NCBI GenBank assembly: GCA_033065855.1
Contig: JAVXUO010003030.1
Location: 1-64,000, forward strand
Source: Escallonia rubra
Taxonomy: Eukaryota; Streptophyta; Magnoliopsida; Escalloniales; Escalloniaceae
Direction: 5' to 3'
DNA length: 64,000 nucleotides
The translations under genes and the position numbers were made by a program. The notes beneath the pieces were generated by a model. The model saw only the letters and a program-made list of their open reading frames with translations, had not been told where the DNA came from and made no database searches. Shown here piece by piece: positions 1 to 55,100 of the stretch (the first letter of the stretch is position 1; every line of letters begins with the position of its first letter).

Positions 1-1340
1 ATGAAAGAATGAGGTGCCAATTTTGAGAGCGATGTCACTGTTAATAGTCAAGGACCTAAAATCACCCCTGTTTTTGGTTTCTTTTGAATTAGTTCAAATA
101 ATGGACTGGAGCAGCTATGGCATCAAGTACAAAGCTAATTGCAAAAGATACCAACGGTTAGAGAAGAACACAAAGCTTGACTAGAGCAGGAGCAGAAGGC
201 TTCGGATGGGAACTTCTCTTGGGAGTGGGTTTGGTTGTTACTTCCTCCCCTAACCGGCATTAGCCATCCAACTGATAGGATCAAATTGAATAGTGACAGG
301 AGCTCAAAAGAAATTTTTAGTTCTTACTGAATTCTCATGCACCATAGTGGCCAGCTGTTCGATGGCTTGATAACAATGAGCCTAGTTCTCTTCTGTGGGC
401 TGAAATATTCAAGCATACTCCCAAATGTGCTAAAGTTCATGCATATAGACACGAGAGGGATTGCTAGAGCTTTTGTTGTTTCATAGGGCATCGAACTACA
501 GAGACTGCCTCGATTATCACACGAGTCTTAATGGCGCGGGTGTTACTGCTGGGTTGATGTTAAATTGCTTGAATCAGGCAAAAGAAACTAATTACAGATT
601 TTCAGTTCGATGACAGGTTTCCTGCTCATTCTAGGTTCAGTTGGACCACACTGGATAAAAAATGTTTTACGTTTAATGTAAGTGCAGCTTACTTTCTAAC
701 CATTTATTGTATAAAATCTCAATTGCAAATTGATGATATAGAATTCATGTTCTTTTCCATAAAGCACGGCTTCATCTCCTCCATTGAATGAAAATACATT
801 TTGTATATTTACCATGCATCCTAGAGTGGATGTAATACTTGTCTTGTGAGATCTAGTGATGAAGGTGGACAAATGGCAAATGTTTGTGATGTATCTAGAA
901 CATGATCAAGCTGCACTATCAACTTGGGAGGCGGCAAAAGCGCCAAAAGGTATATCGCCAAAAGCTCAACATGGCAATTGGCCTTACCACCTGATCCGAA
1001 CCTGACTTTCTGTATGAAATGTTAGCCATTGAAAGAAATTCCTGTTCCTATGAACATGTGTACGTCTCTGGTCTTTTTGTGCATTAGCATTCATATTTCT
1101 GCCCATTGTTCCCTTTGTTATTTCTTTAATTTCACACACCTGTGGCATATGTTAAGATGTTAAGTGGTTGTATTAAGCCAGTCGAAAACATGTGAGGATC
1201 CTCTGACCTGTATCATCTATCTGGATCAAAGTTTACACGAGTACAATACTCCTGTGATATATAAATCATTCTCATTCAAGATTAAGTTCTAAAGAGATCC
1301 ATTTGTCATCATTACAAGGTTGTTTTCTTTCTATCTATTG
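1..1340. other. Intergenic, no gene recognised
   Basis: I find no open frame with family features and no convincing exon series here. The DNA is moderately AT-rich. It could hold the tail or UTR of a gene lying to the left, but nothing in the sequence proves that. Confidence 0.5.
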
Positions 1341-1359
1341 ATTGATAATTTGCTCTTGA

Positions 1360-2000
1360 CGTGCTATGTTCTCTGAAAAGAATTGTGTTATGACATAACT
1401 TGCTTTTCATACTTAGGTGAATTTCTGCTCTAGAAATGTCTACCGTTGTGTGTTTTGGAGGTTGGCTTTTTCATCGAGGGAACAAGCAGTGCCCTAGTCT
1501 CAATGTGCGAACTACCTTAAGTTTCTACTCAAAATTGAGTTTTCGCCTTTGTATAGAACATATATACACGTATAACATGCATAATAAATAGCTTCACAAG
1601 CTGTTTTAAGATCTTCTACACTAATGCACTGCATTGTGACGTTTCAGTAAGGGCGAATTATTCAGTTCACGCAATGGTAGCATGTGATGAACAAAGTACA
1701 AGTTAGCATCTCGTCAAACAACACAACTACATGGAATGGAGACAGCTTCTTAAGGTATCTAAGAAAACCTTCTGATCATATTATCCTTGTCAATATGCAT
1801 GTATGAAGTCAAAACTCAATTTTGAGCAGAAACCTGAAAGTAGTTCCCGCATGGGATGAAGAGAAATGCCTTTTCCCCACAATGAAAATGCCAACCTCCC
1901 AACCACAAACAGTTGTAGGCTTTTGTATGGCAGTTGTTTCCGACAAAGTATGAAAAGCAAGCTATATCACTATACATTCTTCTCAGTGATAAAAAGTTGA
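1360..2000. repeat. Imperfect inverted repeat with about 180-bp arms
   Basis: The segment from about 1360 to 1543 reappears reverse-complemented at about 1811 to 2000, around a spacer of about 265 bp. Shared blocks include CTTGCTTTTCATACTT near 1398 against its complement ending at 1961, GGAGGTTGGC in mid-arm, and CTCAAAATTGAGTTTT at the inner end. The arms differ by many substitutions and small gaps. A transcript could fold into a long hairpin. It could be a decayed inverted duplication, a foldback element or a young small-RNA locus; I cannot tell which. Confidence 0.6.
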
Positions 2001-2515
2001 ACATGACAATTCATATGATTTTGCTGGTAGAGATGTGTGATTGAGGTTGGCACGCTAAAAGATATTCCTTTGTGGTCCAAATACTCGTGTCCTTGCTACG
2101 AGTCCAACAAACTCTGCAAGTTCTGGAAAACGATTGCTAACAGGTGCATCGGCGACAAAATTGTATTCCATAAGGACAAATTTTGAATGTCTGTAACAAA
2201 AGGAGCTGATCGTTCCAGGAAAAAACAGTTCGAATTGAATAAGATGTGAAAGAAATATCTTCAATAGTTTACAACCCTTCACTAATCAAAAAAATTTGAC
2301 TCACCATTCATCTTCTTTGTTCTTGTTCTGTGAAAGTACGTCTCATTTTTTTCTTTTTTGTGGAAACATATGAAAGAAGAAGAAGAAGAATATACGTCAT
2401 AAAAGGCTGGATTACTTGCACCCGATGCATGTACTTCTATGTTCTTATCAAACAAAATTCTGTTTGTGACATGGAACGAATTTATGCTGGAGCTGGACTT
2501 TATAGATGTTGTACA

Positions 2516-2577
2516 TGCGCGCGCGCGCGTGCATATCGGTTTTGAGCAGAAAACTGAGAGGTGTGTGCGCGTGCGTA
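2516..2577. repeat. Alternating purine-pyrimidine tract (GC/GT)
   Basis: A (GC)n run at about 2517-2531 is followed by a second GTGTGCGCGTGCG tract at about 2562-2574. Such tracts are length-variable microsatellites and can adopt Z-DNA. No gene is attached to it. Confidence 0.6.
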
Positions 2578-2678
2578 TATTTTTATATGTGGCAATTTCG
2601 CTAAGATGTCTTCGGTAGTTGGGAGAAGAATCTGCCCGAATCATGGCTCATCAATACCTCTTCAATGAGGCTCTTTAA

Positions 2679-2720
2679 AGAGATAGACTTGCTCGAATAA
2701 GAGATAGACTTGCTCGAATA
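2679..2720. repeat. Tandem duplication, 21 bp x 2
   Basis: The 21-bp unit at 2679-2699 (it begins AGAGATAGACTTGCTCG) is repeated exactly at 2700-2720. It is a small replication-slippage type duplication in non-coding DNA. Confidence 0.85.
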
Positions 2721-3292
2721 TCTTTCTTTCCGCCTTTCTCTTTCGAAAGGCTCTTTCTACCTAAGTTTTTTTTCCCTCCTATGTGCATGTGCATAATGGG
2801 CCAAGAAATGAAAGGGGAGCGGGAGCCCGTTTGAATGTTTAGAGCCCAAGTATTGAAGGTTTAGAAAGCTGCATATTTAGTAAATCAGAGTTAGAGATCA
2901 AATAGAGAAAACAATGAGTGGAAAAGGGGAAAAAGCTAAGAAAGGAACGAGGGTTCTGCTGTGACACAGCTGCATCCTGAAATTAAACATGGTCTGATCG
3001 CCATGAAACTTCATGATTAAACTTTTGTTAAAGTCTATGTGATATCCAACGGTCAAGATAGTGTTTAGAGGTCTGAAAGGTAGCAATCTCGTTGTATCTT
3101 TTTCCAGCTATTTTTGTTTGTTGAGATATCTCCATCACTAATTGCAATCCGCCTTTGCTTAGGTGATACTTGTTCTGGTAACTAAGTGCTGATCCAAGAT
3201 TGTTATCTTCATGGGTGTAAGCCCTCAGTTGTGCTTATTAGAGAGGAAAAAGTAAAAACAATTTGGAAGTCAAGTATTGTTGATAGAGTGGA

Positions 3293-3338
3293 AATATTTC
3301 AGAGTTGGCTAGTGGAATATTTCAGAGTTGGCTAGTGG
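3293..3338. repeat. Tandem duplication, 23 bp x 2
   Basis: The 23-bp unit beginning AATATTTCAGAGTTGGC is present twice in a row without a mismatch. The DNA between 2721 and about 3600 otherwise shows no gene. Confidence 0.85.
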
Positions 3339-3599
3339 TTTATGCATTCACGTTGGAGGGGTTTTCACATTAAATGTTATGACCTAAATGGTTGATTTGT
3401 GGACTACTTGATAGCATTGTTGTTGTCATTTTAACCACACAAACGAGATGCGAAAAAAGATTCTTTGTGCGAGCCCCTTCGGATGGAAATTTGGTGTTGT
3501 TTAACATCTTTCCCTAAAAAGTTTTATCTAGAGCTTTTTTGAAGGTAACTTATTATGTCAATTGCAAATGGATGTAAGTGTGGGTTAAAAAGATAAAAA

Positions 3600-4330
3600 A
3601 AATTGAAGTTAAAATCATGATAATGATAAAAGTCTGATAGCATCAGAATTCTATTTGAATGAGGACTCTATTCTAAGTAAAATTCTCAGGCAACTAGAGT
3701 GTTAGTCAAGTAGAATTCTAAATACACTCGGCTAGAAAAAGTTGACTTCGTTTAGGTCTCTAGGAAGTAAGGCCGAGATTTAGGTGCCCCCCATAGGTCA
3801 GTCAGAACTACATGGTTTTCACCCTGGTTATTTCGACCGGGTATGTAGGACTTAACCCAAGATGTTAGGTTCAAACCAAACTCAAGATTAGTTTAGGTTT
3901 TGTTATGCGCATGTAATCATTTTAACATTTTGGGATAAAAATAAAAAAAATCACTAAAAATAGTGTAGAGACCAATTAGGGTACAATCAATGTGGTGCCT
4001 AACACCTTCTCGTGTGTAGTATAGTGTCCGGACCGATAACTTCTGATTTCGTATTATTAGATGTCTAAATTGGTAAATATATGGTCACGTAAAAGGTTTT
4101 TCGTTTTTACCTTTATCTATGTTAATGCTAAAGATAAGATGGTGACTCGATGTTCCCTAGACCTTCTCGGGTTTAAGGTAATTGTTGAAGGCGGTTCGCC
4201 AGACTTTTAACTATGTGTTCTTTCAAATTTAGTGAATTCATTACCACGGTTAAGCTTTTAACACCGCCCAGTATTCCTTTCAATCAACATAGACACCATT
4301 ACACATGTTCATAATCTTAACCGTATTCAT
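3600..4330 (+). mobile_element. Probable gypsy (Tat-like) LTR fragment
   Basis: The wording around 3990-4020 (GGTGCCTAACACCTTCTCG, preceded by a GGGTACAATCAATGTGG stretch) and the GGCGGTTCGCC block near 4190 resemble LTR sequence of plant Tat/Ogre-type Ty3/gypsy elements as I remember it. No second LTR, coding region or clear ends are visible, so it is an old, incomplete fossil. The family name is an inference from short phrases. Confidence 0.35.
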
Positions 4331-4547
4331 CAACCCGTCACATTTAATTTGAATTCAATTATGATGGACAGAATTGGTGACAATTGCGATGATAGGTGGA
4401 AAAGGTGATGGGATGTAACATGATGTAGTGTGGAGTGGTGAAGGTGATGGTGTCAGTTATGATGGACAGTCATTGGATTGTTCAGATGTTAGATTAGAAA
4501 TGGATACCAAGGGATGGAGGACTGTGGTGGTGGGTGGGTAGACTGCA

Positions 4548-5166
4548 CAGTGGTGGACGGACCAGCAGCATGTGGGGGGGGGGGGGGAGGGCAAGAAGGC
4601 ACGACCACCCCCAAATTTGGGAAATTTGTTTTGGTTCTTGAAGTAATAAAACATTATATTTACTATACTTATAAAAATGTCACTATACTATAACAATAAT
4701 GTATTAATTAGTGTTTATTTTTATCGTGTTTTTAACTTTTTGTATCACCGACCGTCATAGTCTTTAGCTTTGTCTTTCTCTCGCTTCATTTTCATTCTTC
4801 CAAATTCATTCCAAACCTCTAGATTACAAAAAAAACACAAATAGATCAAGCTTCGTTCTTTTTTTTTTTTTTTAAATTCTTGTATTATGTTAAGTATGCA
4901 TGCACTATTGTCCTCGTTTAATTAACAATCACAGTAGTAATACATATCTACATGCAAGTACATATAAGCTTCTTTCATGCAAGATTAGTAATTTATTGTT
5001 GAATAATCTTACCAAGTTAAATAAATCACTATGAATAATAGACTTGTATGATTAAATAAATCATCTTTACGTGAACTTGAATCTTCCAAAAAAATTTGTA
5101 GTAGCCATCAATTTTTTTTTTTAATCACTTTTTAGTTCTCAATCAGACTTTTTGAGTCCGCCCCTG
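4548..5166. mobile_element. Non-autonomous hAT element, Tip100-like ends
   Basis: The left end reads CAGTGGTGGACGGACCAGCA and the right end is the complement of CAGGGGCGGACTCAAAAAG. This fits the CAGGGGCGGA type termini of Tip100-group hAT elements. The interior is AT-rich and has no transposase. I could not find a matching 8-bp target duplication, so the insertion is old or the ends are slightly misplaced. Confidence 0.45.
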
Positions 5167-8100
5167 CGTGTGGACTTTGGCTCTCTTTTGTTTCATCTCT
5201 ACTTAGGTGACGAGTTGTGGTTAGCCGTTACTAATAAAACAAAAGCGAGGAATGTCTTGTTACAGAGGGTCTTCCGCAGTTCGACCTTCGCTTTTGCAAT
5301 ACGACATGATGCACATATCTTTTGTCTCAGTGCTCAAGCTGGATCAGGAAAACTTGGGGGTGGTTTCCAGATTGAGACGCAGCAACCTACACAATCATTT
5401 TGAGGAATAGATAGAAAACTTGAACATGATCTCGCAAAATAATTTTGTAGGCATAGCTGTTTGAGGTTGGTACTCTACGAATTGCGGCTTCGAGTCCAAA
5501 AGTTGGGACTGCTTTACTACTTATCTGGACTGCCATGACGATACAGTTGAGATCTTGTTTGGACCTTGCAATCCATATCTTTTCCATGAAATAATCAGAT
5601 TATTAGTTGGTGATTAGCTCATTTTATACTGGTTTATCACTTTCTGAATTACTAAACAAACAGAAAATGACAGGCTTGTCTGGGGTTAACTGGCTCCATG
5701 TGTGTGTGTGTGTAGAGAGTGAGTGAGTGAGTATAGCTCCATTAAAGATGATGGTTCAATAGCCAGAAATTTGCAAACCATAGAGTTTAATCTGCTAATA
5801 GCTCAAGAGTAGTCCAATTTGTGCCATCACCACACTGCCAAGAAGCCAATGAATGTTGCAAACTCTGAGCAGGACCGATATCTGAAACACCGTGCATCAT
5901 TGATGCGCTTGAAGACTTGAAGAACATTGAAACGTGCATGCATGCTGCAGGAGGCCGCAGCTTGCCCAGTGGCTGACAGCGAAAACCGGTTGCTTCCTCA
6001 CGGCAACTGAAGCAACTTACGGTATCAAGTTTATTTCGTCACAAAACTTGATAAGGCACGCCGCAAGAAGTAGTTCTTCGGCTACGTGTTTCTATCTAAA
6101 CTTGACCTAGGTCATAGGTCACAATAAATATGGTCGAATTCATGGATACGAATATGGATTTAATGGTGACTGATTAATGCTGTAGGAGCTTGCCATTGCT
6201 TCAAAGTATGAAAGGATGAGTAGGACAGTATTGGGGATAGCTGAGCTTCAATTCATCTAAAATGTGGACAGTGCTATAAATGCTTGAGGTTTCTCTGTGT
6301 GGCCACACATTGGCTATGTCGCCCACGGCAAACTTGTAAACCTCCGCTGAGGAGTCCTACCTTTGAAGGCAATGTAACATTTAAAACCTTCAACGCCAAG
6401 CTCAATCATGCAGTTTATGATTGCGATGGCACCTTGAATGTGTCCTTACATGAATTCTCTCTAATGGTCCTAAAGTTTAGTTGATAAATTTTCTAAGCCG
6501 TATGATGCATATTAACTGACCCTTTTTTTCTCGATAGGCTTGTGGTTTCAGTTTAAGGCAATTTTAATTTGATTAATGTTTCATATGATATGATGAGCTC
6601 CAGCTGAAGTAAATGATGAGATTCAATTAAACCCCTTAAGGCTGCGTTCGTTTGGGACAAGCGTGTACTGAGCCCAGTGAGCTGGAAAGGGACTTGTCTC
6701 TGCTAACCATGCATGTAAGGTTTGATGTAACAACCAACTGTACATGCTAATCTACTTAAAATGAATACTCTCCATGTTAACAGCGCAACAGATTTTTAGA
6801 GCATAAGATAAGAAAAAGGTTTTCGTGTTGATCTTCCTTTGGACAAAATTATTCCCAATCGACAGCGTAAGGGTATACGTGTATCGTCGATACTCAACAA
6901 CATATCATGTATTAAGCTACCATCTGCTCTGAAAGTTTAAGCATATTAGAGAACGAACTCAACAATATTATCACTTAACAGTCCTCTCGCGTGCAAGCCC
7001 TTGATTGCACGTACATAAACAAATTAAAGTGCATCACTACTAAGTGTACAAACAAACAAAATGCAATCACACTGCTATAAAAAAAAAAAAAAAACCAACT
7101 ATGCGAGCGAAAAGAATCAAAGTTAAGTCCTTGTCAAACCGGAACATGATATCATATTAAGTTATTAGTCGTTTTAAAAACTTAAGTTTTTAGAGCAACT
7201 TATAACTTAAGACCATCATCAACCGTTTGGTTGCGATGTTATTAATTTGTAGCATATTATTTAGTCTACTCCAGAGAAAGCGTAGAAGCCCTGTGTTTAA
7301 TTAATTTGTAGCAACATAAAATAAGGGGTGATTTTTTATTTTTTTTTCTTTCTGTAATGCTCCCTAAGATAGTAAGTCGTGGAACGTGATGGGTGCACCC
7401 GCTCTGACCCCAAACTTTTACACATTCTGGCATTAGCTATTTACCCGTTTAGAAATGGATGGAAACTATTTAACACACTTATCATCTGCCACAAATGTAC
7501 AGTTTTAAGACAAAAATGCCCTAGTTGGACTTTACGATTTACAACTATCACCAGCCAACTAACTTAAGCTTTCAACAGATTACTTAATACAGTAAGTATC
7601 ATCACTGAATGAATGCATGCTTTTGGTTTAAAGGAGATGCCATGGCAATTAGAGATTGAATCTATGATTTGGGTGTGGGGTATGGTAGGTTTATAAGCGC
7701 ACACACAGACAAGAATTCAAATATAATCTCTCTAAAATTACAATGTTCTTCCCACATTGCAGAAATCTGTTTCCTATTATTCACTACTAAATTTTTATAA
7801 TTCATTTCCACAAAAACTCTTTCTAATTCTGCACAAAGTTAAATACATATACGCGCGCGCGCGCGTGCACACACACACATAATTACTATATCGTTACATA
7901 TATATTCATTACAAAATAATGATAATTAAAACCTCAAAACCTTTACGGTCACCAAAAATTCAAATCAAAGCCATTTGTTACAATTGGTGAGAGTTCGGAG
8001 AGGAACCGAATTTTTCCGAATGGTGGTTTCAGTGGGGTGCTTGCCTTTTTTTTTCTTTCTTTTTGGTAATAAGTGGGGTGCATGACTTGAGCCTTGAGGT

Positions 8101-34660: not shown

Positions 34661-34663
34661 ACA
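34661..34663. repeat. CACTA 3-bp target duplication (ACA/ATA)
   Basis: ACA precedes the left CACTA end and ATA follows the right end (37588-37590). Removing the element with one ACA copy restores the transposase sequence around the Ser-Ile-Met-Cys-Asp-Gly-Trp codons. The original duplication was therefore ACA, with one later change. Confidence 0.7.
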
Positions 34664-35199
34664 CACTACAAGAAATAAGGCTTTTAGCGACGGGACCTCA
34701 AATCCGTCGCCAAAACTTTTAACGACGAATATACCGTCGCTAAAAGTCCCTCGTATAAAACTCCGTTAATAAAAGTTTTGCGACAGAATTTTAAAATCCG
34801 TCGTCTAATATTGAACTTTTTGCAGCAGATTTATTTATAAATTAGCGACGAAAATTCCGTCGCTAATTCTACTTTACATGCTTTAGTTTATTTTCTTTTT
34901 TTGTGAAATTAGCGACGGATAAAATTTTTAACAACGGAATTAATCCGTCGCTGAAAGTCATTTTTTAAAAAAATATATATTTTTTAATTTTTTAAAACCA
35001 AAACCTGTAATAAAAAATTCAATCCTCAACCTAATTAAAATATGGTTAATCCGGACTAATTAGGGCTAATTATAGCCAGTGCTGGAACCACGACGATACT
35101 CCAGGAGGTGCAAAGAATGTCGCGCTAGCCTAATTAACCTAAATTTAATGCACAGTCAACAATCTCAATTCCAACACCTCATATAGGGTGTCGATATGG

Positions 35200-35288
35200 T
35201 GTCTGATACGTGTCCGACACCTACGACACGTGTCTGACACCTACCGACACGTGTCCGACACCTACCGACACGTGTCCGACACCTCCGT
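35200..35288 (+). repeat. 21-bp tandem repeat in the CACTA element
   Basis: About four units of the type CGACACGTGTCCGACACCTA C follow one another. The CACGTG palindrome recurs in each. There is no cas gene and no unique spacer, so it is a minisatellite. Confidence 0.85.
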
Positions 35289-35592
35289 CAACAATCTCAA
35301 TTCTCAAATACTCAATACAATAAAAATTAATAAAAATCACACATTCAATCCAATTGGGTCATATCATCTGTCAACAATCTCAATATCTCAAATGCCCAAA
35401 TACACGATTAACAATCTAAAATCATCAATTAACAACCTAAAATCATCAATCAATAATCACAATTTTCAAATGCACAATTAACAACCTAAAATTATCAAAC
35501 AAATAATCAATGTTCAAACGGAAAATAATTTGTTCAAAATGCAAATATCCAATGTGATTAATTTAATTTAGGGTTTAATTAGGGCTCAGAGT

Positions 35593-36038
35593 TCAACATT
35601 GGGGGAAAACTTTTTCACAAGTGCTTTGATCAAACACCAGCACTTGAAAACGCATATGCCCCATGTGTTCAAAGACAACAAAGTCCCCAATATTAAGGTC
35701 ATGTTGCCGCACGAATTTGTTCCAACCCTCTTCGAAACAAATTTCCTCTTGGTCGCGCTTCTTCTTGATTTTAACAAGCCATGACCCATTGCGGCTGGTT
35801 AAAGTTGCTTCCTTTGATCTCACTGTGGTAAGCTGACTGCAAAAGGCTACCGGTATGGCCTAACATATTCATAATACAGTAAGACAGGTAAATTTTTGAC
35901 CAAAGATAATAGTGCGTACACACACGAAAACACAGAAAAAGAGGGATGGCATACAAGTTTTGTATGAAAACCAGGCATCATGACCTTGAAGAAGTGTCTA
36001 CCGATTGAAACGTCCTTCTTCACTGAAGCAGAAGCCAT
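35593..36038 (-). CDS. REM-like B3 DNA-binding protein inside the CACTA element
   Basis: This is a two-exon gene on the minus strand: exon 1 at 35955-36038, a 95-bp GT-AG intron, exon 2 at 35593-35859. The product is 116 aa. Exon 1 gives MASASVKKDV and IGRHFFKVMMPGFHTKL; exon 2 begins AIPVAFCSQL and continues through SRNGSWLVKI, GWNKFVRQHDLNIGDFVVFE and FQVLVFD. This is a single B3 domain (about residues 14-108) with the usual order: FFKV-PGF, IP-F, a W-V-I strand, GW-F-HDL-GD-VVF, and a final F-V-VFD. B3 proteins of the REM group bind DNA and act in the nucleus, often in flowers and meristems. Both exons are open and the splice sites are sound, which is unusual for a gene captured by a transposon. 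The frame ends in a natural stop. Expression cannot be judged. Confidence 0.82.
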
Positions 36039-36289
36039 TTAACCTACTTTAACATGAAAAACCAATCGAGCATTATTCAATTGATGAACATCAATTTCAT
36101 AGCTTAATTAAATCTATTAAATGTCACACTGTATAAGACCTTTAAGCTTTTAGTAACTAAATCAATACCACGGGCCCAAATATGACATTTCAATTCGGTG
36201 TCGGTGTCGATCAGACTCAATTCAATTGGGTAGAAAATTATGTTAAAGTGATGCTAAAAGTGCAATCCACAGTGAGTTGTAGCTAAAAT

Positions 36290-36560
36290 GATAGGACAGA
36301 TAAATCTCAGCAACAGCACATAAAATAAACGCAGAGAACACAACCCCCTAGGCCGGGTTACCGTATAGTATTGGCCGCGCTTATCGACAAGCATTGACCG
36401 CGCTTGCACATGTACCACCCTAGGTCAGGTTACCGTATAGTATTCAATGCTCACATTGCGTCTAACGCTAATCCGGAATACACCCGCGCTTGCACAGGTA
36501 CCACCCTAGGCCAGGTTTAATCAAATCAACCCGACGATCCAAAAAAATCCGGTACCACAT
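36290..36560. repeat. Interspersed short repeats upstream of the B3 gene
   Basis: GCGCTTGCACATGTACCACC followed by a CTAGGTCAGGTTA phrase occurs in two near copies, and GTTACCGTATAGTATT also occurs twice. They lie 250-520 bp before the B3 start codon. They may be part of the element's own repeats or of the captured promoter. Confidence 0.6.
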
Positions 36561-37077
36561 ATCCTACATTACTTTCTGATATGGACTCTTGGTACATTCC
36601 TCGGGGTTACCATTGAAATGCCAGTTTGTCACCATCTTGCTATGATTTATCTCCATAACTAATTTCAATCTTCTCTAGGCCTAGTGCTAGCAGTAGATTC
36701 CACGCTCTTAAGGGTTCGATTCCACCTGGTTCCGGCCATTTTTTGTCTATTTGTTATTCTGCAGATTATTATTATTATTGTGTTAATTTCACGTCGACCT
36801 AGACCGTTACACTGGATTTTCAATTGAAGTCTAGATTCAGAGAAATCATGAAAGGGATCTTATAATTATAACAGCATGGTGGAGCAAGTTTATATAACAG
36901 CAACATTGTAACTGCTAATATTTTTAGAAACTCTATGAAGCAAACAATTAAACTAACTAAACAAAATGGGCATGCATTTGTATAAATTATGATTTTTCTA
37001 CTGACAATTAAGAGCAAATTGTTAAGGACACTGATGAAAGAAAATGGTGAGCAATGGGCAGTACCATGAAGGTCGTC

Positions 37078-37277
37078 GGAGGTGGCGCAGTGTCGGGGGG
37101 AGGACGGGGATGCCGCCGGAGGTGGCGCTGCGTCGGACGGAGGACGGGGCTATCGCCAGAGGTGGCGTCGCGTCAGGGGGAGGACGGGGATGTCGCTGGA
37201 GATAGCGCGGCGTTGAGGGGAGAACGGGGCTGTTGCCAGAGGTGGCGCGACGTCAGGGGGAGGACGGTGGTGTCGCC
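37078..37277 (+). repeat. GC-rich minisatellite, 40 bp x 5
   Basis: Five consecutive units of exactly 40 bp share the frame GGAGGTGGCG...GGGGGAGGACGGGG...TCGCC. The period is not a multiple of three, so the chance open frame across it (37054-37368) reads each unit in a different frame. It lies next to the right subterminal repeats of the CACTA element. Confidence 0.9.
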
Positions 37278-38329
37278 AGAGATGTGGGTCGACATGGGGT
37301 CGCCGGTGGGTGAGATATTCGAGACAGGGAGAGAAACGGGAGAAAGAAGACGTTCTGATTTGTTTTAAATACGAGTTTTAGCGACGAAATTACACTATCG
37401 CTAAAAGCCCGTCGAAAGAAGCTATCATTAATGACGGAATTTTTAGCGACGGTAGCATTCTGTAGCTTATAATGTTTTTAACGACAGAAATTTACCAACG
37501 GGTTTATCCGTCTCTGAAAGACATTTTAGTGACGGAATTCCTTTCATTGCTAAAAGTCTGTCGCAAAATCATTGTTTTCTTATAGTGATATAATCGAACA
37601 ACCCGTTTTTTCCATTCTTCTTCATGATCCTTCATCAACTTATGCGTATTATCCACCTCTTTTTGCAGTAGGGTAACCCTAATATCATGATAACTTGGTG
37701 GCTTTAAACCTGAACCATATTGACCAATAGCCGCAACCATAGCCCAAAGCTGTCAAAGTTCACGGCGTTGAATGCAATCCCCGCATCATAAAAAAAATAT
37801 TGCTATTGCACTACAAGCCCGATTTCTCATCTCCTTTTTTGCTTCTTCATTTTCAAATACCGTGGATTGCTTCATCTTTCTCTTTTTCACTACCTCTTCC
37901 GGGTCCGGGGTGAAATACACATCCATTGGGCCCTTAGCCTTTGGATTCCTACGAGGAGGTTGACAAGGATTCCCGGTAGATGAAACTCCCTTCTTCTTGG
38001 ATATCTCAACTACATCATCGTCCTCGTCATCTTCTTCATCATTGAAAACGTTATCAAAATATGGGACGCACTTAGCTAGTTCTTTCTTTTCTTTGACAGA
38101 ATGTAGCAATTCATTTATCTCATCTCTTACATGTTCTGGACACTCTCGGCATGTTGAAGCATTCCTATAACCTCTAGCAAGGTGTTGCTTATGTCAATAA
38201 ATGCCCCCCCTTTTGACAAAAATTACAAGTGAAATTACAAATTACTGCATTTTTATCGCTCGGATTAGTTGTATGTCCATATTTCCAAGCTGGGTAATTT
38301 GTATCCGTACTCGGTGTCGACATGGATAT

Positions 38330-50299: not shown

Positions 50300-50491
50300 T
50301 GTAAACTAAAAGTATTGCAAGAAGATAGAAACAGCAGTGCAAGACCCATTTTCAGGAAGCTCTGTATCTCTCTCAGATTAGGTTACCCAAAACAGAGTTA
50401 CATCATATATTGTAATGCAAAGAATATGAAAATACTTATCTACCCTCTAGAGATAAACATATTTACAATAATGGACTCATGACCTTTATCA
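50300..50491 (-). repeat. Copia 3' LTR
   Basis: This is a 192-bp LTR with TG...CA ends (TGATAAAGG start on the minus strand). It is preceded in transcription order by the purine tract. It is very short for a copia LTR. Confidence 0.95.
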
Positions 50492-53400
50492 CCCTCCCTC
50501 AAACTCACGATGGGATAATGAGACCATTGAGAGTTTGCCAAGTAGTAGCGTGAAGCGAGCAAACGTATGAGATTTGGTAAAAAAATCAGCAAGTTGTAGC
50601 GAGGAAGACACATATGGAAGGGTGATAGTGCCCTGGTGGAAGTGATGACGAACAAAATGACAATCAATTTCAATATGTTTGGTTCGTTCGTGAAAGACGG
50701 AATTGTGTGCAATTTCCACAGCACTTTTATTGTCACAGAACATAGGCGTAGGAGAGGATTGTGTAGCACCCATATCACGTAGTAACCATCGAACCCAAAC
50801 AATTTCTGCTGTGGTATTGGCCATGGCACGATATTCAGCTTCTGAACTAGAGCGAGAAACAACACTTTGTTTCTTGCATTTCCAAGATATAAGAGAGTCA
50901 CCAAGAAAAATGCAAAACCCTGTGGTAGACCTACGATCAGATACATCACCTGCCCAATCTGCATCCGAATAAGCACTAAGAGTAAGATCTGGAGAAGAAG
51001 AGATGAGCAAACCTCGGGACAATGTGCCATGAATATACCGCAAGATACGAACAACAGCCGACCAATGAACTGAGCGAGGAGCCGAAACAAATTGACTAAC
51101 TACATGGACTGCATAAGCAATATCAGGTCGAGTGATGGTAAGATATACCAAGGATCCAACAATTTGGCGATACAAAGTAGCATCATCGAGAGGAGTACCA
51201 TCAGTGGGGCAAAGCTTGACATTAAGTTCAAGAGGAGTATCAACCACCTTTACTTCAGTTAACTTAGCACGACTAAGAATGTCATTCGCATACTTGGTTT
51301 GGGATAAAAGATACCCTTTTGGAGAGTAAGCAACTTCAATACCAAGAAAATAACGAAGAAGGCCCAAGTCTTTCATCTCAAATTTATCATATAGGTGGTC
51401 TTTCAACTTAGATATTCCATATGAATCATCTCCGGTAATAATAATATCATCTACATATATCAATAACAAGATCCTACCACGCTGAGAAGTAGAATAAAAA
51501 AGAGCAGGGTCATGGAAGCTTTGAGAAAAACCAATACATGTCATGGTTTGGCGAAACTTTTCAAACCAAGCACGTGGTGCTTGTTTAAGACCATACAATG
51601 CACGGCGTAAACGACAAACCTGAGTAGAGGAACACAGAAGGCCTTGTGGAGGTTTCATGTAAACTTCTTCTTGTAAATCACCATTCAAAAAAGCATTTCT
51701 AACATCCATTTGGTATAGTGGCCATTGCTGTTTGGCTGCAACAGAAATGAGAGTTCGAACGGAAGTCATCTTGGCAACGGGGGCAAAAGTTTCATCATAA
51801 TCAATTCCATATTCTTGAGAGTACCCTTTTGCCACTAACCGAGCCTTATATCGTTCGATGGAGCCGTCTGAGTTGGTTTTGACTTTATAGACCCATTTAC
51901 ACCCAATAGCTTCTTTGCCATGTGGCAAACTCACCAAATCCCAAGTGTGAGTTTTCTGAAGTGCAAGAAGTTCTTCATGCATAGCATGTTGCCAATGGGG
52001 AACAAGATTGGCTTCCTTATAAGAAACAGGCTCATGAAGAGAATGAATAGAACTAAGAAATGATTGGTAAGATGAAGAAAAACATGTTTTGTAATCTTTT
52101 AGCCAAGAAGGAGGATGGTGAGAGCGAGAAGGATACCTTGGAGCAACTTGTGATGGAGAGGGACGAGCATCATCAGGGTCAGCATTGGACTCTGGTAGAG
52201 AAGGGGTATCACTTGGAAATGGTAAAGGAGAAGACATTACTTCATCGGGCACAAAAATTTCAGGACTAGAATCTACATGACTAGACAAAGTCTCAAAATT
52301 TGCAAAAGGATCAAGAACAATTTCTTCCTTGGTTGCTGTAGGAGATGGAGGAAGACAGTAAAATGGAATATGCTCTAAGAATGAAACATGTCTAGATAAA
52401 CGAAGTTTCTTAGCAATGGGATCATAACATCTATAACCCTTTTGTTCGATACCATACCCCAAAAACAGACATAAAGAAGATCGAGCTGTCAATTTATTTC
52501 GCTCATTCTTAGGAAGAAGAACAAAACAAGTACACCCAAATACTCTAAGTTCAGAGTAATCTGGGCGAAGACCAAACAATTTTTCATAGGGGGAGAAGCC
52601 TCCATTTACAAAAGTGGGGATGCGATTAATTAAGTACACAGAGGTAAGGACAGCTTCACCCCAAAACGAACTTGGAACGAAAGCTGATAGCAAAAGAGAT
52701 CGAGCTGTCTCAAGTATATGACGATGTTTCCTTTCAGCCTTACCATTTTGTTGGGGTGTTTCCCTGCAAGAGTATTGCAATATTGTTCCCTGAGAAGCTA
52801 AAAGCTCTAAAAAAGGACTGGATGTATATTCCCCACCCATGTCAGTTCGAAACACTTTGATGGTAGAATTAAATTGGGTTCTAACCATCGCAACGAAGTT
52901 TGAATATATTCTAAAAAATTCAGATCTACGATGCATTAGGAACACCCAGCTAAAACGAGTATAATCATCAACGAATGAAACATAATATGATGATCCACCT
53001 TTGGTTGTAACAGGTGAGGGGCCCCAAACATCAGAATGTATGAGGTCAAAAGGAGCGCAAGAAACAGAATTACTTTTGCTAAAAGGAAGGGCATTAAGTT
53101 TTCCGAGCTTACAACCCTTGCAATCTGAAACATCTGAGTACAAAATATCACCCAAAATACCATTGGAGACCATATATTTCAGACGAGAACCTGAGACATG
53201 ACCTAGCCTACAATGCCAAAGCTGAAATGCAGACGAGTGTTTGTTTAACTGGAAAGCAGACAAGGCAGAATTTTCAGCAATACCAGGTGAAACAAAAAGA
53301 TTTTGCAAAAAGTAGAGTCCCCCGTCTCTACGGCCTGTCCCAATCTGCCTCCCTGTATGCCGATCCTGAACAACACAACCAGAAGGTGAAAAAATGACAT

Positions 53401-55100
53401 CACATCCAGCATCAACAAGCTGACTAATAGAGAGAAGATTTACAGATAATTTTGGAACATGTAAAACATTAGATACACAAAGCTCTCCAGAGGGAAATGA
53501 AGTCGAATCTATGGAACCCAATTGATGTACTTCCATAGATGACCCATCTGCTGTTTGAATAGAAGATGGAATTAAAGATGTAGAGCGCTCAACAAGAATA
53601 GAAGAATCATGAGTCATATGGTGAGATGCACCAGAATCAAATATCCAAGACGATGTTTTACCTGAATGGTTCATAGAGTGCGCACTAGCGGGGGAGGCAG
53701 ACATAGCAGTGGAAGTAGATGGTTGAGCATTAAGCGAAGTACCAAGTAACTGTTGAATTTGTTGAGTGACCATTGACTGGACATCTTCATGAGTAACCCC
53801 ACTTGTATGACTAGAATCGGGAGCTATGACGGAAGTCATGAAAGCTCCCGTATTCATTGTTCTCTGAGCATTGCGAGAGTTTTGCGAAAAATGATTTGGA
53901 GATGGCAAGATTCCCTTTTTTCGAAGTTTGGGGCAGTCACGTTTCCAATGCCCCTTTTCATGACAAAAGCTGCATTCATCAAGAGCAATTCTGAAATTTC
54001 CAGAAGGTGGAGTAGCACGAGAAGGAACGAGTGGAAGGAACTGAGGCCGTTGTGTTGCTACAAGGACAGCTTGTGTTTGCATAGAATGGAGCAAAGAAGA
54101 TTTAAGCCTGGTTTCTTCAGCCACCAGTTCACTCAAAACTTTGTCCACGCTGGGCAATGGAGAGCGATGCAACATGGAGCCTCGCAAAGGTTCAAATTCA
54201 GTACGCAGTGCCATAAGAAACTGAACAAGTTTTTGCTCTTCCCGAACTTTTTGATATATTGCTAATTTTCTCAATTCCAATGGATCCATCAAGTCTAATT
54301 GATCCCAAATTCCATTCATCACATTGTAGAATTCTTGAACCGATTTATCATCTTGACGTTCACCTCGGATCACGTTCTCTAGCTCATATCTCTTTGCAAA
54401 GTTTGATTGCATATACAGACCTTCCAAATAGTCCCAGACCTCTTTTGCAGAGGTAAATTTTGAGAAATGCATTCCAATAGATGGTTCTACAGAATTATTA
54501 ATCCAAGACAGAATTCTGGCATTATTGGTTTCCCATTCTTGTTGCAATTTTTCGTAATTTGTATCCGACTCTTCTGGAGCCACAACTGATCCATCTAAAT
54601 ATCCACGTAGTTCCTTACCAGTTATGAATACTTTTAAGAGGTACGACCAGTAAGAATAATTTGAACCTTTTAATTTAACTTGGGTCACTTGGTTGGATTC
54701 GGAGGCCATGCTTAGAAGAAAATGATTTATAGCCCCAGAAATATCAAGAAAATCAAGTACCAGCCAAATAGTACTAACAGTTATGCTGAAATCCACACAA
54801 ATTGCAAAGAACTTCTTCAAGAGTAAAAGCTTACCTTAATCTTACGTCCAAAGTAGAAGCTGAGAAACAGAAGCTAACTTCTTCAAGATCTGACGTTTGC
54901 CGATTCCGAAAAGAAGATTGATGACAGATTTTTGAAGGTATCAAACCCAGCTGTAGAACGAAGAAGACTTACACCCAAAGAGAGGGATTGGATTTCCAGG
55001 AGAGAAAGAAGAAGCAAAGGATGCTGATCAAAGTTTCTGACTCAATTGAAGAAATCAAAGAACCGAAAGACTTGATGGATGTGAATTGGCTCTGATACCA

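Follow-up and report, generated by a model that had tools for sequence, protein, structure and literature searches.

A CACTA element without a transposase in Escallonia rubra carries, in many copies, a B3 domain probably captured from a host gene

A CACTA element of 2924 bp lies in the window, the 64,000-nucleotide stretch of Escallonia rubra contig JAVXUO010003030.1 that was analyzed. With a probability of roughly 0.75, it is a Pack-CACTA element in which a 5' piece of a host B3 gene was captured once, was multiplied in trans, and encodes a protein that is mainly a passenger. The features of the element are as follows, in window coordinates, with the strand given where one applies.

34661 to 34663: left target-site duplication (TSD), ACA (from ACA/ACA in L010 and from empty sites)
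34664 to 37587: non-autonomous CACTA element, 2924 bp (from terminal inverted repeats, subterminal repeats, TSD, and empty sites)
34664 to 34675, plus strand: terminal inverted repeat (TIR) CACTACAAGAAA (from end comparison)
34664 to 34983: subterminal repeat array, 8 copies of a TTTTAGCGACGG-like motif
35584 to 36038, minus strand: segment probably captured from the host, the first B3 domain of a gene that likely has a further B3 exon (from homology to L057, 1998 to 2462)
35593 to 35859, minus strand: B3 gene exon 2 with stop (from frame and Pfam)
35860 to 35954, minus strand: 95-bp GT-AG intron (GT and AG kept in 56 of 60 copies)
35955 to 36038, minus strand: B3 gene exon 1, 28 codons
37072 to 37281, plus strand: GC-rich 40-bp minisatellite within the element, common to other copies
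37358 to 37587: subterminal repeat array, 6 copies of a TTTTAGCGACGG-like motif
37576 to 37587, minus strand: terminal inverted repeat TTTCTTATAGTG (from end comparison)
37588 to 37590: right TSD, ATA, with one change (from ACA/ACA in L010 and from empty sites)

The CACTA ends and subterminal repeats proposed in the sequence-only reading are borne out by the end structure and by the insertion site. The CACTACAAGAAA that starts at 34664 and the TTTCTTATAGTG that ends at 37587 are matching inverted repeats. With up to two mismatches, TTTTAGCGACGG occurs 14 times in the element: eight times in the first 320 nucleotides, six times in the last 230, and not at all in the middle 2374. In 200 letter shuffles of the element, the mean count was 0.3 and the maximum was 4. 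The element is flanked by ACA and ATA in the window, the right copy differing from the left by one change, and by ACA on both sides in L010, a duplicate of the same insertion. A search with the joined flanks gave 80 candidates, and all 40 that were scored cross the join. ACA is present once in each of the four empty sites that were read. The insertion site therefore belongs to a repeat of which many empty copies exist; three open frames in its flanks have no Pfam match. The flanks of L010 are approximately 94% identical to those of the window insertion, so the insertion was copied along with its host repeat or region.

Two internal irregularities were observed. The minisatellite is composed of 5.2 units of 40 bp. 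Many copies of the element lose homology at 36344 and some regain it between 36379 and 36932, so the window sequence from 36345 to 36930 has the appearance either of a separate insertion or of a block that was swapped within the element. Elsewhere in the window, at 50489 to 54820 on the minus strand, is an uninterrupted 1443-amino-acid copia-type polyprotein frame with gag, integrase, and reverse transcriptase domains.

The element and its cargo are present in many copies in the genome (566 Mb in 3222 contigs). A search with the gene gave 1276 candidates, and the 40 that were scored, the window included, all cover most or all of the gene at 91 to 100% identity. A 33-nucleotide pattern from exon 2, with up to three mismatches, marks 355 places (control 0), at least one of which is the host gene described below. 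A second exon 2 pattern, made for a younger subfamily, marks 530 places (control 0). Some places belong to both sets, so the combined total lies between 530 and 885, and a single-copy cargo is excluded. The cargo is found in several subfamilies. A pattern for the left end of the element marks 3517 places (control 0). If these are mostly left ends, as in the window, the majority of elements with such ends would carry no cargo. As a side observation, C57 (29857 and 38660) and C1465 (100783 and 109586) each hold two cargo matches in opposite orientation exactly 8803 bp apart, an arrangement suggestive of a regional duplication or of two assembled haplotypes.

Ends were compared in 41 long loci (the window, L009 to L047, and L056). 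At least one CACTA end is present near the gene in 36 of the 41, and in 27, not counting L030 and L046, a left end is no more than about 1 kb from the gene. No CACTA end was found in the stretch examined for L024, L038, L043, L044, or L047. Both TIRs and a perfect 3-bp TSD are present in 11 of the 41 loci. The end pairs of L030 and L046 were dropped as complete elements because their duplications are unequal. Adding the window gives 12 complete elements; these occupy 10 sites, since the window and L010 have common flanks, as do L015 and L018. The flanks of L016 and L056 show a weak resemblance (65 to 79%) that is repeat-rich, and their TSDs differ. With insertions at 10 independent sites among the 12 complete elements, the element is mobile.

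The element lacks a transposase, as had been proposed from the sequence: tblastn with nine transposase reading frames from the same genome gave no match in the window. The same search of L009 to L047 gave one weak match (L041, E 4.8e-5), which lies outside the element-aligned stretch. No Transposase_21 (PF02992) gene was found inside the B3 element. An autonomous element containing the B3 gene was considered at C55, where a B3 copy sits 5 kb from a transposase match, and was rejected because the ends are separate. At this locus, L056, the B3 element (1275 to 4768) has its own ends and an ATT/ATT TSD, and the transposase gene is located outside those ends. A CACTACTCGGCAC repeat array (680 to 1171 and 4828 to 5248) encloses the B3 element beside the transposase gene. 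Since the B3 element has its own ends within this array, the B3 element and the transposase are separate and nested. PF02992 matches are many across the genome. Dozens have an equal score and a 761-amino-acid open frame, many of them near contig ends, and probably reflect a very recent CACTA burst. No autonomous partner with matching ends was found among the transposase genes of the genome, and no matching ends lie within the short flanks of eight transposase loci (L048 to L055).

The B3 gene, putatively of REM type, is on the minus strand, with its ATG at 36038 and its stop ending at 35593. An 84-nucleotide exon, a 95-nucleotide intron, and exon 2 give a product of 116 amino acids. Nine splice combinations keep a frame; removal of the 95-bp intron gives a complete B3 domain, and the host gene has the GT and AG of this intron as well. 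The product contains one Pfam B3 domain (PF02362) that covers positions 1 to 100 of the 101 in the profile, with E 2.5e-17 and a score of 63.1 bits, above the cut-off of 30.1. The open, spliceable two-exon gene read from the sequence therefore stands. Its best solved relative is At1g16640 (E 1.9e-4). Exon 2 alone was modeled as 88 amino acids (mean pLDDT 72.7, pTM 0.59). B3 domains rank at the top of the PDB matches to this predicted model, with At1g16640 first (E 4.7e-4, TM 0.54), and we have moderate confidence in the model as a B3 fold.

The window has 47 open frames of at least 80 amino acids, as would suit a frame opened by chance in repetitive DNA. That explanation is refuted by the Pfam match over nearly the whole profile; the PDB matches of the exon 2 model and the existence of a host homologue also speak against it, and we give it practically no weight.

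The search for a parent gene recovered a host homologue, L057, on contig C2145. This locus carries both exons of the cargo and has no pair of CACTA ends. No AGCGACG/CGTCGCT subterminal motif was found in L057. A single CACTA string is present at position 1279, two mismatches from the TIR, with no right-end partner. The gene is among six B3 matches in a row on the C2145 contig (36187 to 51107). Alignment to L057 ends at 2460 to 2463 in all 41 long loci. In L057, exon 2 is open for 345 nucleotides, to 2524, approximately 20 residues beyond this common edge. A further B3 exon is present downstream (3215 to 3487), and judging by its position alone it likely belongs to the same gene; another B3 lies at 234 to 572. 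Because L057 is open past the edge and has the downstream B3 exon, the cargo corresponds to the first B3 domain of a larger gene. The sequence-only reading had taken the B3 gene to be complete; the cargo is instead a truncated N-terminal piece of it. Its stop results from a one-nucleotide difference near the edge, where L057 and the copies nearest to it (L035, L040, and L043) carry one nucleotide more.

In the main family, homology to the host gene starts at the ATG. L035 and L040, both close to L057, retain 197 nucleotides of host sequence upstream of it. The extended L035 locus contains sequence resembling both element ends, and L040 contains the right end only. These loci bear on a reverse derivation, in which the B3 gene would have belonged to CACTA elements since ancient times and the host gene at C2145 would descend from it. 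Such an origin would accommodate the cargo being in several subfamilies and the CACTA string in L057. However, the reading frame of the host copy extends beyond the common edge, with a further B3 exon after it, the locus sits among other B3 matches without an end pair or subterminal motif, and the copies closest to it retain extra host-like upstream sequence. We regard the reverse derivation as very improbable. Capture from the host gene is the preferred direction, and since the copies have the same 3' edge, one capture event is inferred.

Whether the captured frame is maintained was examined in copies that were not a random sample: they came from the best 40 matches and from lists of up to 100 places, with L058 and L059 included for their open-looking frames. 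Across 40 copies, divergence from the majority at codon positions 1, 2, and 3 is.043,.041, and.049, against.046 in the intron. Relative to the expectation from the intron spectrum, nonsynonymous, synonymous, and stop changes number 412 against 497, 175 against 191, and 29 against 42. When CpG-type sites are left out, exon divergence (.049,.038, and.046) exceeds that of the intron (.028). Pairwise dN/dS pooled by distance bin is 0.59 to 0.75, and dN/dS against the host gene is 0.59 to 2.25, mostly 0.6 to 1.4. The pooled pN/pS of 0.745 is within the range of the simulated neutral value (0.904, sd 0.125). Strong purifying selection was not found, as the pooled pN/pS is near neutral and the codon positions diverge about as much as the intron. 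Codon variants found in one, two to four, and five or more copies number 150, 98, and 64 (nonsynonymous), 36, 27, and 24 (synonymous), and 6, 7, and 2 (stop). Unique indels number 49 in 318 exon sites and 20 in 89 intron sites, lower in the exon by approximately one-third.

Broken versions of the frame are also present in groups. A frameshifting indel pair is common to nine copies, and the clade of L017, L027, and L029 has a common stop at codon 55 and a one-nucleotide deletion. Stops at codon 55 (10 copies) and codon 27 (7 copies) are scattered among several clades, perhaps through recurrence, and were therefore not counted as amplified breaks except in L017, L027, and L029. Because frame-broken versions also multiplied, the B3 protein is not needed in cis.

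The open frames give a different picture from the substitutions. The ATG, splice sites, and frame are all kept in 43 of 99 copies, 93 of which have the whole gene. Regardless of splice sites, the frame is open in 45 of the 93 full copies, and 64 copies have no in-frame stop. A neutral simulation on the tree, started from an open frame and run without rate variation or a CpG effect, gave a mean of 2.5 open frames (sd 3.9, maximum 21, 300 runs) and 22.6 copies with no in-frame stop (sd 20.8, P 0.017). When the indel rate is lowered, open frames remain in excess among copies chosen by the 33-nucleotide pattern (27 of 52), but the excess fades among copies chosen by similarity (16 of 38; P 0.157 with the lowest rate). 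A Ka/Ks near 1, which the sequence-only reading had named as speaking against its proposal, is thus roughly what the substitutions give, but open frames survive beyond the neutral simulation.

This excess is one point in favor of a reading in which the B3 protein helps the transposon. The protein would be made from intact copies and would bind element or host DNA in trans, and lineages with open frames would amplify better. In a young clade (support 100, 20 copies), pN/pS is 0.51 against a neutral 1.00 (sd 0.37, P 0.033), and the coding indel that defines the clade is 3 nucleotides long. With eight more copies added, 21 of 28 are intact by a test whose leniency at the 3' end is evident from L130; the codon variants of these 28 are 49 nonsynonymous, 26 synonymous, and 4 stop, with 22 variants in 82 intron sites. 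Splice signals are intact in 87 of 99 copies, with six partial copies scored as misses. Against such help stand the near-neutral substitution tests for the whole family, the multiplication of frame-broken clades, the simulation without rate variation, and the choice of copies by similarity or from the matches listed. In addition, pN/pS between young and old copies (0.685, P 0.108) is not significant, and it is 0.639 (P 0.058) when both are intact. On balance, the helping protein is unlikely; its candidate targets would be the subterminal repeats, or host targets whose binding would ease silencing. TnpA of En/Spm binds subterminal repeats and is not known to be a B3 protein. It would be a functional analogue if an element-encoded B3 protein bound DNA, with putative binding at the ends. 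We read the cargo as a passenger; the hint of constraint is real but unproven.

Pack-CACTA, or Pack-TYPE, elements are treated in PMC8903248 and PMC13317346. As far as the excerpts of these papers go, the present element resembles them in its CACTACAA ends, as used for Arabidopsis in PMC8903248, its lack of a transposase, and its captured host gene DNA; on its own side, it adds a 3-bp TSD and an identified host homologue. Four Pack-CACTA features are present: TIRs with a 3-bp TSD, no transposase, captured DNA with a host-gene source or homologue, and independent insertions. The excerpt of PMC8903248 gives 54 CACTA-like elements in 12 clusters for the small genome of Arabidopsis. The copy number here is well above that, and many copies have an open frame and splice sites. 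According to the excerpt of PMC4938662, bean pvCACTA1 exceeds 12,000 copies, so a high copy number is in itself unremarkable.

Other CACTA elements with captured DNA are partly comparable. Tgm-Express of soybean, in the excerpt of PMC1947982, mobilizes host gene fragments, which are spliced; the present element differs in having a single fragment that is open and in hundreds of copies. Jozin of Chenopodium, in the excerpt of PMC8978399, is likewise a CACTA element with captured pieces, one of them (AP2, 80 bp) from a transcription factor. It differs in having CACTAGT ends and a transposase, and the excerpt describes no B3 capture. Jozin was rejected as the identity of the present element because the ends differ. 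No capture of a B3 gene by a CACTA element was found in the titles and abstract openings of the open-licence PMC papers listed.

In the Pack-CACTA reading, a CACTA element without a transposase would have acquired the 5' portion of a host gene encoding at least two B3 domains, with its start codon, first intron, and first B3 domain. A one-nucleotide frame change would have created the stop that ends the cargo. A transposase provided by another element would have raised it to hundreds of copies, and the B3 frame would have been carried along mainly as a passenger drifting near neutrality. Mobilization in trans and near-neutral drift both appear probable. Counted against this reading are the open-frame excess, the young-clade pN/pS, the autonomous partner not being found, and the CACTA string at position 1279 of L057. 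A role for the B3 protein is possible. It is doubtful that the captured domain would be a trans-acting helper whose frame is kept in amplifying lineages and which would bind element ends or compete with a host factor.

A jumping element with a captured host-gene piece is a known kind of event. Two things stand out here: how many copies hold a single captured fragment, and how large a share of copies are open and spliceable. A captured DNA-binding domain is present in hundreds of copies with splice sites, and the frame is open in approximately half of the copies that were read. This offers a suitable natural system in which to ask whether selection on the transposon ever preserves a captured domain, or whether such a domain can compete with the host factor from which it came.
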